Assembly: GCA_947497475.1 (NCBI GenBank) | Contig: CANMGS010000002.1 | Location: forward strand, 372,001-436,000 | Length of the DNA: 64,000 nucleotides | Origin: an uncultured Amylibacter sp. | GTDB taxonomy: Bacteria; Pseudomonadota; Alphaproteobacteria; Rhodobacterales; Rhodobacteraceae | Direction: 5' to 3' | Part shown: in pieces, positions 51,463 through 54,487 of the stretch | Layout of the letters: every line of letters starts with the position of its first letter | Position numbering within the stretch: the first letter of the stretch is position 1 | Translations under genes and position numbers: made by a program | Notes under the pieces: generated by a model | Told to the model about the DNA's origin: nothing | The model's database searches: none | The model's input: only the letters and a program-made list of their open reading frames with translations

Positions 51463-51548
51463 GCGGGGTAATATTTTTTGCAATTCAGCGTCTTATTGTG
51501 ATTGACGATAGTGTTACAGGGCGGTAAACGAGCCCTCACGTGATATCT

Positions 51549-51633
51549 GCCCGAGTGGTGGAATTGGTAGACACGTTGGATTCAAAATCCAATGCTTCAC
51601 GGCGTGCCGGTTCGAGTCCGGCCTCGGGTACCA
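51549..51633 (+). tRNA. tRNA-Leu (anticodon CAA)
   Basis: 85 nt, class II. Acceptor GCCCGAG/CTCGGGT (terminal G-U), anticodon stem TTGGA/TCCAA with loop TTCAAAA (CAA), variable arm TGCTTCACGGCGT, T-arm GCCGG-TTCGAGT-CCGGC, A discriminator and CCA. Its 3' end is repeated at 53358-53373, which marks an integrated islet. Confidence 0.96.
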
Positions 51634-51635
51634 CG
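51620..51635. repeat. Left att repeat (tRNA-Leu 3' end)
   Basis: GGCCTCGGGTACCACG covers the tRNA acceptor 3' strand, CCA and 2 more bases. The identical 16 bp occur at 53358-53373, and the extra two bases before it differ by one (CCGG versus CTGG). Confidence 0.9.
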
Positions 51636-51637
51636 AA

Positions 51638-51672
51638 AAAATCCTTTTAAATCAATGATTTAAAAGGATTTT
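51638..51672 (+). terminator. Islet-borne hairpin directly after tRNA-Leu
   Basis: AAAATCCTTTTAAATCA (51638-51654) is perfectly complementary to TGATTTAAAAGGATTTT (51656-51672) and followed by CGTCTTTTT. Probably terminates tRNA-Leu transcription now that the original terminator has been pushed 1.7 kb away. Confidence 0.8.
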
Positions 51673-51713
51673 CGTCTTTTTGGAGACTGCAAAATAACCG
51701 TAATTATCAAAAC

Positions 51714-51747
51714 TTGTGATACAATCTGTGATACATTTTGTGATACA
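51714..51747 (+). repeat. Three tandem TTGTGATACA repeats, left end of islet
   Basis: Copies start at 51714, 51726 and 51738 (TTGTGATACA, CTGTGATACA, TTGTGATACA), an exact 12-bp period with 2-bp spacers. The same array in the same orientation occurs at the right end (53229-53262). Fits recombinase arm-type sites. Confidence 0.85.
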
Positions 51748-51759
51748 ACTAGAGAAAAA

Positions 51760-51795
51760 CCATAATTTATTTAAAGTGAACTATATAAATTATGG
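51760..51795 (-). terminator. Rho-independent terminator of the TIR-SLATT operon
   Basis: CCATAATTTAT (51760-51770) and ATAAATTATGG (51785-51795) are complementary, and on the minus strand the stem is followed by TTTTT. It lies 18 bp after the SLATT stop codon. Confidence 0.8.
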
Positions 51796-51812
51796 CTCTT
51801 AAAGTTTCTGGT

Positions 51813-52688
51813 TTAGTTTGCATCCCGCCTTGCTACCCACTGAGTATGCTCTCGAGAGAAGGCTAATTCAGATTCGTTAACAAAATTTGATAAATCAGCT
51901 TCGGTTTTAATGGAATCAGAATTGCTTTTAATAATACCAATTTCGTGAGCGGTTAGATTGTAGCTAGCCATTAACTCACCGTGGCGTTTCATCTGGAGCC
52001 AACCTAATGCTGAGGTGACTAAAACAATCATCGGATCAAACGCTAGAGTTAAACTTGGTAAGCTAAATGAATCTGCGTTTAATGTGATTACCGCCAATAT
52101 ATAAATTACAATTGTTACAATAAACCACATCAATAGCGCACTCTTATTAGCTGCCGACTTTTTAGAGTACCAACGACGTTGGTTATCAATTCTATTAGCA
52201 ACATAATAAGCTAACCGATCTTCAAGAGATTGTTTGCGAATATCAATCATTGAATTTGTTATCTGGTCGGTTTCGTCGGTAGAAAGGTTTATTGCGATGT
52301 GTTTGTTTGCGCGCAATATATCTCGTAATAGATTCCTAAAGTTAGCCTTTGGAATATCGATATTAGATGTATCTTCAAATGGATGTGCTCGCATTGCAAA
52401 ACGCCAAGTCGAGGTTTTCACGGATTCAGCCAGTGCACGACATCTATACCAGTCTTGGTCATGCTTCTTTACCATTCTGAATATGAATAAACCTGCGAGT
52501 ATCACCAACATAATGGTGATAGCCAATGTACTAATGCCAAATAGATTTCGAGTTGCACTCGCAATGCTTACAGAGAACAGAAGGAAATATTCTATTCTAA
52601 TTGTCCATAAAAAAAAGCTTTGTGCCTTTACTGAACCATCGTTTGCACTCTTATATAATGCTGGAAATACTAAATCATGATCTTTCAC
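51813..52688 (-). CDS. SLATT/DUF4231-like membrane protein, predicted effector
   Basis: 291 residues from GTG 52688, preceded by AAGGGA and overlapping the TIR stop as GTGA; a longer frame to 52730 runs into the TIR gene. Two hydrophobic pairs are visible: about residues 25-75 (FFLWTIRIEYFLLFSVSI, LAITIMLVILAGLFIF) and about 200-245 (ALLMWFIVTIVIYILAVITL, PMIVLVTSALGWLQM). Between and around them are WYRCRALAESVKTSTWRFAMRAHPF and YYVANRIDNQRRWYSKKSAAN, the pattern of SLATT (SMODS- and SLOG-associating 2TM) modules. SLATT proteins are predicted to form pores that kill or arrest infected cells. Here it probably responds to the TIR protein. Confidence 0.75.
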   Translation of the reverse strand: MKDHDLVFPALYKSANDGSVKAQSFFLWTIRIEYFLLFSVSIASATRNLFGISTLAITIMLVILAGLFIFRMVKKHDQDWYRCRALAESVKTSTWRFAMRAHPFEDTSNIDIPKANFRNLLRDILRANKHIAINLSTDETDQITNSMIDIRKQSLEDRLAYYVANRIDNQRRWYSKKSAANKSALLMWFIVTIVIYILAVITLNADSFSLPSLTLAFDPMIVLVTSALGWLQMKRHGELMASYNLTAHEIGIIKSNSDSIKTEADLSNFVNESELAFSREHTQWVARRDAN

Positions 52689-53080
52689 GATATTTCCCTT
52701 ATTCCTGCAACAATTGAATCTGAATTCCAATTAACAATTTTATCAGCCTCTAGTGTTATCGCTGCGGGCATTTGTATTGCTCCTCGTGGTCTTACACCAA
52801 GGATAGGTTTATTAATGCTTTTGGCAAATTCTAGTTCAAATTGTATCCAATCACTATAGTTCGCCCACATGCCGCCGATAATGATCACACAATTTACTGG
52901 GCGGATTTGCTCTCGTAGCTCTTCTTTCATTTTATATTTAGCCATATGACCGAAAGCTTTAGTTTCTGGTACAGAATAATTAACCCAAGTGAAAAATAGC
53001 CGATTGTTTAATAAGTTTACCATTGAGTTATAAGGCTCGCTGTACGACCATGAGTGACTGATAAATAGGCGTTTAGCCAT
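52685..53080 (-). CDS. ThsB-like TIR domain protein (DUF1863 type)
   Basis: 131 residues, one domain. It opens with RLFISHSWSYSEPYNSMVNLL, a typical TIR beta-A and alpha-A with the SHSW start seen in ThsB-type and DUF1863 proteins. Residues 76-82 are SDWIQFE, which fits the SxWxxxE motif and gives Glu82 as the candidate NADase catalytic residue; the following KPILGVRPRG is the usual strand and loop. In Thoeris defence such a TIR protein makes a cyclic ADP-ribose-type signal that triggers an effector. A promoter and GAGGAA ribosome site precede the gene, and the SLATT gene follows with a 4-bp overlap. Confidence 0.8.
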   Translation of the reverse strand: MAKRLFISHSWSYSEPYNSMVNLLNNRLFFTWVNYSVPETKAFGHMAKYKMKEELREQIRPVNCVIIIGGMWANYSDWIQFELEFAKSINKPILGVRPRGAIQMPAAITLEADKIVNWNSDSIVAGIREIS

Positions 53081-53112
53081 GCGATAGTTTCCTCGTTAAT
53101 AGTTACAATTTT

Positions 53113-53141
53113 TCTATAGCGCATTTGGAACAAATTGTGAA
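53113..53141 (-). promoter_or_regulatory. Predicted sigma-70 promoter for the TIR-SLATT operon
   Basis: On the minus strand TTCACA (53136-53141) and TATAGA (53113-53118) are spaced by 17 bp. The inverted repeat ATTTG-GAA-CAAAT (53123-53135) lies in the spacer and could be an operator. GAGGAA sits shortly before the TIR start. Confidence 0.5.
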
Positions 53142-53228
53142 CATATAAGTGTTTGTAAATTAAATTCAGATTACCTTAAACATTTTAGAAGTATTTCTAA
53201 ACCGTGATTAATTTTAACTATTTAAAAT

Positions 53229-53262
53229 GTGTGATACAATTTGTGATACTTTTTGTGATACA
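53229..53262 (+). repeat. Three tandem TTGTGATACA-like repeats, right end of islet
   Basis: Copies start at 53229 (GTGTGATACA), 53241 (TTGTGATACT) and 53253 (TTGTGATACA), 12-bp period. It is the same spacing and orientation as the left array. They are 96 bp from the right att repeat. Confidence 0.85.
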
Positions 53263-53335
53263 CGACAGATTTGATCAGCTTTTGGATATTTTTTAACTAT
53301 TTGATTTTTAATGATAAAGTTGCAATTAAGGTTCG

Positions 53336-53351
53336 ATACCGTTAACGGTAT
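53336..53351. repeat. Perfect 16-bp palindrome next to the right att repeat
   Basis: ATACCGTTAACGGTAT lies 6 bp before the right att repeat. It is a candidate core or accessory recombination site. Confidence 0.55.
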
Positions 53352-53357
53352 TACTCT

Positions 53358-53373
53358 GGCCTCGGGTACCACG
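53358..53373. repeat. Right att repeat (duplicate of tRNA-Leu 3' end)
   Basis: Identical to 51620-51635 over 16 bp. It lacks any upstream tRNA body, so it is not a second tRNA gene. Confidence 0.88.
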
Positions 53374-53380
53374 TAACAAA

Positions 53381-53408
53381 AAACGCTCCACTATAGTGGG
53401 GCGTTTTT
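53381..53408. terminator. Bidirectional terminator between the islet and phoR
   Basis: A hairpin ACGCTCCAC/GTGGGGCGT with a TATA loop, with T-runs on both sides (TTTTT on plus, TTTTTT on minus). It probably ends phoR transcription and, before the islet inserted, ended tRNA-Leu transcription too. Confidence 0.85.
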
Positions 53409-53443
53409 GCGTTTTATGGGGTAAATCTAAATGGCTGTAATGC

Positions 53444-54487
53444 TTATTTGGTCTCAACCACGGGCAGAAATACAGAAAAAATACTGCCCAAGCCCAGCTT
53501 GCTATCAATATGTAAATAGGCGCGGTGGCGGATCAGGATGTGTTTCACAATAGCTAAACCAAGCCCTGTGCCGCCCATATCTCGAGAGCGGCCTTTGTCG
53601 ATACGGTAGAAGCGTTCAGTCAGACGGGGTATGTGTTGTGGATCAATGCCTTCGCCTTGGTCACGCACAGAGATGCGTAGCTGGTTTTCATGACTTGGGT
53701 CTGGTTCAGCCACAATGGCCACTTCCGTGCCAGGTTTGCTGTATTTGATGCCATTTTCAATCAGGTTCTGGAACACTTGTGTCAATTCATCCGCATCCCC
53801 CACAACCATTGGTAAGTCATCAGAGACAGTCAAAGCGATTGCTGTGTCTTCAGTGTTTGAAATAGGCTCTAATGAAGCCACAACACGACGCAAAATCGTC
53901 TCAAGATTAACGGTTTCATGCGGTGCAATCCGTTCACTGGCTTGTAGTTTAGACAAAGACAACAGATCACCAATCAAACGGCTCATGCGCTGCGCATCAC
54001 TTAGCATCAGATCAAGGAACCGTTCACGTGCGACAGAATCATCTTTGGCGGGGCCTTGCAGGGTTTCGATAAACCCAGATAGGGATGTGAGCGGCGAGCG
54101 TAATTCGTGACTGACGTTCGCTACGAAATCAATGCGCATTTGTTCGGCTTCGCGAATGTGGCTGATATCTTCTAAGCTAATGATCGCGCGTGCTTTTTTA
54201 CCAGTTAACTCTGCATCAAGCCGTGTGACGATCAAACGAAAGGTTGTGGGAACCACATCTTGTAGGGTTAGTTCCAAAGAGACTGTAGTTTCGCCTTTCA
54301 AAACACGTTCTGCTGCCTTTTCACATTCTTTCGCAGGGATCACGCTGAACAGTTCGTCGTCTTTCCCATCAATGCCAAAACGTTTTTTGGCTGCAATGTT
54401 GCCAAATCGGATAACTTGGTTGGCATCGATTACAAAAACAGCCACTGATAGGCCGTTTAGGATGGTCTGAACGCTTTTTTTCAACAT
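53444..54487 (-). CDS. phoR: Sensor histidine kinase, PhoR-like
   Basis: 347 residues with no clear membrane segment at the N-terminus. A PAS-like domain (about 5-115: GLSVAVFVIDANQVIRFGN) is followed by HisKA (FVANVSHELRSPLTSLSGFIETL, His in SHELRSP) and HATPase with NLIENGIKYS, DQGEGID and GGTGLGLAIVKH. The pattern and length fit the PhoR of alphaproteobacteria that senses phosphate through the Pst system, but phoB and pst are not in this window. Its start is 61 bp from a candidate RNA terminator. Confidence 0.82.
   Translation of the reverse strand: MLKKSVQTILNGLSVAVFVIDANQVIRFGNIAAKKRFGIDGKDDELFSVIPAKECEKAAERVLKGETTVSLELTLQDVVPTTFRLIVTRLDAELTGKKARAIISLEDISHIREAEQMRIDFVANVSHELRSPLTSLSGFIETLQGPAKDDSVARERFLDLMLSDAQRMSRLIGDLLSLSKLQASERIAPHETVNLETILRRVVASLEPISNTEDTAIALTVSDDLPMVVGDADELTQVFQNLIENGIKYSKPGTEVAIVAEPDPSHENQLRISVRDQGEGIDPQHIPRLTERFYRIDKGRSRDMGGTGLGLAIVKHILIRHRAYLHIDSKLGLGSIFSVFLPVVETK

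Follow-up and report, generated by a model that had tools for sequence, protein, structure and literature searches.

An integrase-less islet with attP-like ends and a TIR-SLATT gene pair at tRNA-Leu(CAA) of an uncultured Amylibacter sp.

Integrated elements that keep both attachment sites, attL and attR, and carry no integration or transfer genes are defined in PMC5704250 as cis-mobilizable elements (CIMEs). Movement by enzymes encoded elsewhere characterises miniature inverted-repeat transposable elements (MITEs) and clusters of attC sites lacking integron-integrases (CALINs), which PMC11389934 treats as hitcher elements, and phages P2 and P4 are described in PMC9122126 as having defence-gene hot spots of about 1-5 kb. 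The present analysis concerns a window of 64,000 nucleotides from an uncultured Amylibacter sp. (GCA_947497475.1, contig CANMGS010000002.1, positions 372,001 to 436,000 of the forward strand), in which a small insertion, hereafter islet 1, occupies positions 51620-53373 at a tRNA-Leu(CAA) gene and carries a ThsB-like TIR gene and a SLATT membrane gene. We consider, with moderate confidence, that islet 1 is a non-autonomous integrative element, made of attP-like ends and a TIR-SLATT module without an integrase, which was inserted in trans.

The nearest known kind is the CIME. As in a CIME, attL and attR are kept, and integration and transfer genes are lacking, the latter as judged from gene content, no separate search having been made for them. 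Unlike CIMEs, islet 1 and the two further islets described below are cargo only, measure 1.1-1.7 kb, bear arm arrays at both ends and display three arm motifs within one genome; as for the decay of an integrative and conjugative element (ICE) or an integrative and mobilizable element (IME) from which CIMEs originate, the islet contains no recognisable remnant of a parent, and no larger parent was found. CIMEs move in cis, once accreted to a functional element. The movement proposed for the islets, by an enzyme supplied from elsewhere, would resemble that of MITEs and CALINs, whereas the ends of islet 1, placed at a tRNA gene, resemble the att sites of a tyrosine integrase rather than terminal inverted repeats or attC sites. 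Integrative and mobilizable elements encode their own integrase, and P4-like satellites an integrase and satellite genes; islet 1 has only its two cargo genes, neither of them relaxase-like. No description of such islets was recognised in a literature search covering titles and abstract starts, which is not proof of absence.

Islet 1 is a real and precise site-specific insertion. Its target, tRNA-Leu(CAA), lies intact on the forward strand (51549..51633, ARAGORN) and overlaps the attL core GGCCTCGGGTACCACG (51620..51635, + strand), which is repeated exactly as the attR core (53358..53373, + strand) at a spacing of 1738 bp. The initial annotation had bounded the islet by exact 16-bp copies of the tRNA-Leu end, and these boundaries were confirmed: the 16 nt comprise the 14 nt of the tRNA 3' end and two nucleotides (CG) past it, and the first 14 nt have exact matches at these two sites only, both in the window and in the genome. 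The GC content of the islet is 34.8%, vs. 47.9% and 45.6% in the 10-kb flanks. The corresponding empty site was found in a genome of the same genus (G402), where the Zn-peptidase gene, tRNA-Leu and the histidine kinase gene stand together, with about 80 bp from tRNA to kinase. This genome is the top match of the genus set at the tRNA (89% identity over 260 bp), and when the window flanks are joined at the repeat, 121 of 130 positions are identical to it.

A chance origin of the repeats was ruled out by the pattern counts in genome and window, the shuffles and the own-tRNA controls given below. An inverted-repeat transposon was likewise rejected, since the islet ends are direct repeats and none of the seven inverted pairs listed joins them. 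The whole-islet DNA has matches in 22 plasmid and 19 phage records, all of them extending over less than 80% of the query, and among the matches listed all 12 correspond to the tRNA end of the query.

Inside each end lie three copies of TGTGATAC at 12-bp spacing, detected by repeat scan and genome pattern search: a left array at 51715..51746 (+ strand) and a right one at 53230..53261 (+ strand) in the same orientation, with all six copies perfect. The 12-bp repeats reported by the initial annotation are therefore real, the triple pattern with at most three mismatches being matched twice in the window vs. never in 100 shuffles, and exactly twice in the own genome, where the reversed control pattern had no match. 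In a weaker test, limited to the best tandem pair, 18 of 1000 shuffles scored as high as the left array, and 1 of 1000 as high as the right one. Among 394 family genomes (own included), the triple and its two-copy form are present in the own genome only; a looser two-copy pattern is found in three of the 33 genus genomes, the other two (G399 and G408) having single matches with another spacing.

Read as a circle, islet 1 places its arms at -127/-115/-103 and +96/+108/+120 from the core, which looks like a complete tyrosine-integrase attP with the TGTGATAC arrays as putative integrase arm sites. The layout was compared with one complete attP, that of a 58.7-kb viral contig (L122), where arms at -106, -94, -82 and +104, +116, +128 surround a 14-nt core about 1.5 kb upstream of a DUF6538-class integrase gene. 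In both, a core equal to a tRNA 3' end has GTGATAC arms on either side, three per side at 12-bp spacing and at similar distances; the viral contig encodes the integrase and its core matches, by eye, the end of tRNA-Ser(GCT), whereas islet 1 encodes none. As for P4-type elements, the phage P4 record annotates 12-bp 'attP arm sequence repeats' as tandem pairs flanking the core on both sides, and two same-genus elements of this type share the tRNA-Leu(CAA) target (see below); unlike islet 1, such elements encode the integrase, and their repeats are GGGGGCAT or GGGGGTAT. In the library searched, there was no paper joining arm-type, integrase and GTGATAC, nor one for DUF6538.

Two further occurrences of GTGATAC were recorded. 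In a Sulfuricurvum element with a P4-type integrase (L109:5859-5965), the repeats lie in the middle of the element, behind a frame that we read as primase- or helicase-like, so that the repeat may also serve other roles, e.g. as an origin. In a planctomycete stretch (L113:587-1995), a tRNA-Val with GTGATAC arms precedes a reading frame that passes from a tyrosine-integrase fragment into an IS-like rve domain.

The occupancy of the tRNA site was surveyed in a genus set of 32 other genomes, 29 of which match this tRNA region; stretches from 19 of them were examined, plus one family member (G222). Neither a TIR or SLATT homologue nor a tandem GTGATAC was present in any of the 19 same-genus tRNA-Leu(CAA) stretches. 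Two of them (G407 and G410; stretches L222 and L229) have a P4-type integrase (Arm-DNA-bind_3) just behind this tRNA; G410 shows two copies of GGGGGTAT at 12-bp spacing behind it, and G407 has copies of the same repeat, with no 12-bp tandem counted by the script. The site is therefore used by other elements and islet 1 is not fixed. The initial annotation had suggested looking in relatives for the same tRNA site empty or holding other cargo with the same 12-bp repeats: the empty site was encountered, the repeats of the other elements at the site differ from TGTGATAC, and the fixation of the genes in all relatives that would have spoken against mobility was not seen. In the family member, a DUF6538 match lies behind tRNA-Leu(CAA), with no GTGATAC nearby. 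A 3-kb stretch behind tRNA-Leu in G408 reads as ordinary genes.

The absence of the islet genes from all 19 stretches also bears on transfer by gene transfer agents (GTAs). According to this explanation, the founding insertion was the work of an integrase in the distant past, and GTA particles now pass the islet from one roseobacter to another, through homologous recombination at its conserved flanks. The own genome does carry a GTA_TIM gene (L273, contig 2:453193-454083, E 6.1e-147) about 28 kb beyond islet 1, and the islet with its flanks would fit a particle, whose capacity is about 4 kb. Since the genes are missing from the same-genus stretches and the perfection of both arm arrays is left unexplained, we hold this route to be improbable.

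Both cargo genes are on the reverse strand. The TIR protein (52685..53080, 131 amino acids (aa)) is ThsB-like, with matches to ThsB_TIR (PF08937, E 1.8e-11) and PADLOC ThsB (7.7e-13), and its Glu82 is invariant among seven aligned homologues. The SLATT (DUF4231-type) membrane protein (51813..52688, 291 aa) was assigned by domain matches (SLATT_3, 9.1e-34; SLATT_1, 1.1e-30) and homologue alignment; it has three hydrophobic stretches, of which two are clear and one is weaker. These two genes are indeed the only cargo, as first annotated, with a correction of the SLATT start: the GTG at 52688 is more likely than the mechanically chosen TTG at 52730. As this GTG overlaps the TIR stop, the two genes are probably translationally coupled. 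Alignments with homologues indicate an intact and conserved cargo.

TIR-SLATT neighbourhoods are known in firmicute phages, and SLATT proteins have been predicted to be ADP-ribose-regulated membrane-permeability effectors, as stated in PMC9503650. The same pair, at 60-76% identity, was found in three other Rhodobacteraceae stretches (L264, L265 and L266), and the TIR and SLATT relatives also adjoin in the two Vibrio plasmids inspected. From the two families, the phage neighbourhoods and this recurrent pairing, it is likely that the pair is a putative anti-phage defence. The ThsB-like TIR together with a second, effector-type gene recalls Thoeris; Thoeris effectors are of the ThsA kind (SIR2-SLOG or macro), whereas islet 1 has no ThsA and its partner gene is SLATT.

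Concerning the distribution of the two proteins, SLATT was matched at E <=1e-20 in 5 of 388 genomes, own included, one being a partial match with no TIR hit. Plasmid records with a SLATT relative number 81, and those with a TIR relative 99; in the phage collection, no SLATT relative was found, and the single record with a TIR turned out to be a Salmonella contig. TIR relatives adjoin caspase-like genes in a Salmonella houtenae element integrated at tRNA-Leu (L269) and in a Thiolapillus plasmid (L271).

The surroundings of the three Rhodobacteraceae pairs comprise a terminase gene (L264), an integrase fragment at the contig start (L265) and a large serine recombinase (L266), and a repeat search around them gave no clear att sites. 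This company is what would be expected if the pair normally rode larger elements, and it favours the view of islet 1 as a decay relic, strictly speaking a CIME. The element that inserted at tRNA-Leu would then have been a larger prophage or island encoding an integrase, and internal deletion would have removed the integrase and almost all the rest, sparing the ends and a useful cargo, now stranded. CIMEs are defined by such decay in PMC5704250. We rate this origin as unlikely, for reasons that come from the absence of integrase remnants and from the other islets.

Against 108 integrase queries, no islet 1 frame of at least 20 codons gave a match at E 0.01, and a looser blastp gave only integrase matches of 11-39 residues at E 0.006 or worse. 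The initial annotation was thus right that the islet contains no recombinase gene, and no integrase belonging to the same insertion, which it had regarded as a possible refutation, was recognised. As no recombinase is encoded and attP-like arrays lie at the islet ends, an outside source of the recombinase is most likely. For a non-autonomous element of this kind, the integrase of a different element, of which a phage or island of the DUF6538 class with the same tRNA target is the likeliest, would bind the arms in trans and recombine the core with the tRNA end, joining a small circle to the chromosome. Integrases of this sort need a directionality factor to excise, and excision of the islet would require the same integrase plus such a factor. 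The islet might spread either by insertion of the circle beside its helper in the shared att site (accretion) or in gene transfer agent particles. On infection, following the known chemistry of TIR signalling, the TIR protein would make an NAD-derived signal opening the SLATT membrane effector.

A DUF6538-class integrase is our best guess for the helper, in view of the L122-like arm layout, the TGTGATAC triples adjoining such integrases and the 12-bp tandems upstream of their relatives. Such triples adjoin DUF6538 integrases in four stretches (L122, L146, L039 and L328): in L039 the triple stands behind tRNA-Leu(TAA), its arms 59 bp past the tRNA and the integrase adjacent, and in L328 it consists of two exact copies and one variant near the integrase. 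A profile of five integrases of the DUF6538 set was used to obtain the best 80 of 113 viral loci. Of these 80, 31 have 142 bp or more upstream of the match, and tandems were counted at 30 of the 31, L122 being left out; a 12-bp tandem, defined by 10 or more identical positions out of 12, was found in the 200 bp upstream of 16 of the 30 viral integrases, against 0.145 expected from shuffles and 0 of 30 inside the gene, although these are not 16 independent cases because some loci are near-identical, a point to be added to the objections gathered further below. Such tandems are perhaps a general arm-site signature of the DUF6538-related class. The tandem GTGATAC itself was present in only 2 of the best 80 viral loci, one of them L122, whose integrase, used as a query against viral contigs, matched only itself. 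The upstream tandems of the DUF6538-related viral integrases (L276-L354) vary in sequence, e.g. TTGCTGCACA or AACGTCCTACA.

At E 1e-6, DUF6538 matches occur in 195 of the 394 family genomes and none in the own genome. The cassette dependent on a foreign recombinase, as first proposed, is partly upheld, by the precise insertion, the lack of a recombinase, the attP-like arms and two further islets, but not by a resident helper of the DUF6538 class; this lack of a helper is also what a decay relic would present. The own genome has four Phage_integrase matches: two of 306-309 aa, which from their size and domains we take to be XerC/XerD-like, one of 427 aa and one of 403 aa. The last, a P4-type integrase behind tRNA-Ser(GCT) (L162:8815-10700, contig 1 at about 1097.3-1099.2 kb), could be supposed to act on islet 1, as it resides in the same genome and the interval from its tRNA to its gene holds two 12-bp-spaced copies of TGTGGTAT, a motif like TGTGATAC. 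Two of the eight motif positions differ, though, there are two copies instead of three, the tRNA is another one, and the arms of islets 2 and 3 are quite different, which makes a role for this enzyme very improbable indeed. No second copy of the TGTGGTAT repeat or of the tRNA-Ser end lies within 11 kb around this integrase, and no TGTGATAC tandem (at most one mismatch per copy) was found near it or near the 427-aa one.

A core search allowing one mismatch brought up a second pair of repeats, 1404 bp apart, on contig 1. This islet 2 (L359:5753-7170, contig 1:1493752-1495169) lies at tRNA-Leu(TAA) and has three arms of GCATAACAATTT type at each end, at -126, -114, -102 and +81, +93, +105 from the core, one of the six copies having a changed base; its empty site in G402 is 98% identical over 101 bp. 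The cargo is a small membrane-type protein of 163 aa with, in our reading, a hydrophobic start, for which no Pfam family scored above the cut-off. Positions L359:6613-6882 fold as RNA far better than shuffles (z -6.1, 0 of 100), with pairing ends, and possibly represent a new structured RNA; an Rfam scan of islet 2 to E 1 gave tRNA only and nothing for this stretch. Relatives of the islet 2 cargo were absent from the plasmids.

Islet 3 (L366:8172-9315, contig 3:44271-45414) lies at tRNA-Asp(GTC), with a repeat spacing of 1130 bp. Its left arms are two copies of TGTCACGA at 12-bp spacing, and its right end has one exact and one degenerate copy. The islet encodes a protein of 209 aa that bears a HEPN-type RNAIAH motif and whose match to PF18735 (4.2e-5, 24.0 bits) is below the 28.4-bit cut-off; two weak plasmid matches were its only relatives, none being found in viral contigs. 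Near the right end stand five tandem repeats of TTGACGCAAC type. With their cores included, the three islets have 36-37% GC. Compared with one another by blastn at E 0.01, they have no sequence in common, and none holds an integrase remnant when compared with the 108 integrase queries.

The islet scan covered about 12 kb behind each of the 37 tRNA matches in the genome, the tRNA-Ala(GGC) stretch being only 1.4 kb. The test against chance used the 35 distinct tRNA genes of the own genome that are followed by 1.3 kb or more of sequence: the last 14 nt are repeated within 12 kb downstream in three of them, exactly the three islet tRNAs, while the same 14 nt upstream and the first 14 nt downstream both gave 0 of 35. 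Over all loci collected up to that point (113 distinct tRNA genes, those with less than 800 bp downstream being skipped), three repeats of at least 14 nt were obtained, all with matching arms and all in the own genome; as many tRNA genes of other records had short downstream stretches, little can be said on the frequency of such islets elsewhere. Weaker repeats of 11-13 nt at tRNA-Arg(TCT), tRNA-Pro(TGG) and tRNA-Arg(CCT) lie 4-10 kb away without arm triples, and one weak triple was seen on L363, 2.7-4.2 kb behind two tRNAs.

Three islets in one genome make a maintained non-autonomous class more likely than a single decayed relic. Decay would demand three deletions at three tRNAs with three arm motifs, each sparing both ends and an intact cargo frame; moreover, the missing integrase remnants and the six perfect arm copies of islet 1 do not fit it. 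It is plausible, if slightly short of an even call, that the three islets constitute an undescribed class of ultra-small cargo-only cassettes, each an attP with one or two genes keyed to a different integrase, hitch-hiking on temperate phage or island integrases and carrying single defence-like modules between tRNA sites.

Several results weigh against insertion in trans by a DUF6538-class helper. The TGTGATAC motif is not class-specific, as it also accompanies a P4-type integrase (L150) and Arm-DNA-bind_5 integrases (L119, L123, L136 and L145). Of the 155 stretches bearing the triple in the large collections (112 genome and 43 viral), only 10 contain an integrase homologue matched by the queries, and 98 of the triples are inside reading frames of at least 150 codons. 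A core-constrained viral scan with the pattern used found no virus combining TGTGATAC arms with a tRNA-Leu(CAA) core, nor was an autonomous element with this combination found in that scan or in the 394 family genomes. The arm patterns of islets 2 and 3 are matched in 18 and 14 viral stretches, respectively, several islet 2 matches lying inside long similar frames; in these 32 stretches, there is no nearby integrase except in L417, where one of another class stands 170 bp from a TTGTCACGA pair, the only other integrase homologues (L401 and L403) being some 8-9 kb away. Finally, neither a circular form nor movement nor a helper was seen for the islets.

As regards the tRNA itself, a terminator scan of positions 51500-53450 found three terminator-like sites vs. 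1.3 expected. A hairpin with a T tail at 51638..51672 (+ strand) is a probable substitute terminator brought by islet 1, the native tRNA-Leu terminator hairpin, which in the G402 alignment directly follows the tRNA, being displaced to 53379..53408 (+ strand). Because the islet supplies a terminator behind the tRNA in place of the displaced one, expression of tRNA-Leu(CAA) is probably kept. By eye, islet 3 has a similar terminator arrangement behind its tRNA.

The route by which single defence systems pass from one genome to another is often unclear, and islets reduced to att sites and cargo would give them a simple one. Searches that start from an integrase gene would miss such islets, and a single one would be filed as a decayed element. 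The three islets provide a signature that is easily searched in any genome: the end of a tRNA gene recurs 1-2 kb downstream, tandem arms that match each other lie just within both ends, and an integrase is lacking. With this signature, the prevalence of the cassettes and their helper integrases become testable, and the cargo of the cassettes offers a shortlist of candidate defence genes. If the cargo-only class is real, it would be the integrase-side counterpart of MITEs, and cassettes this small could travel within their helper or next to it.

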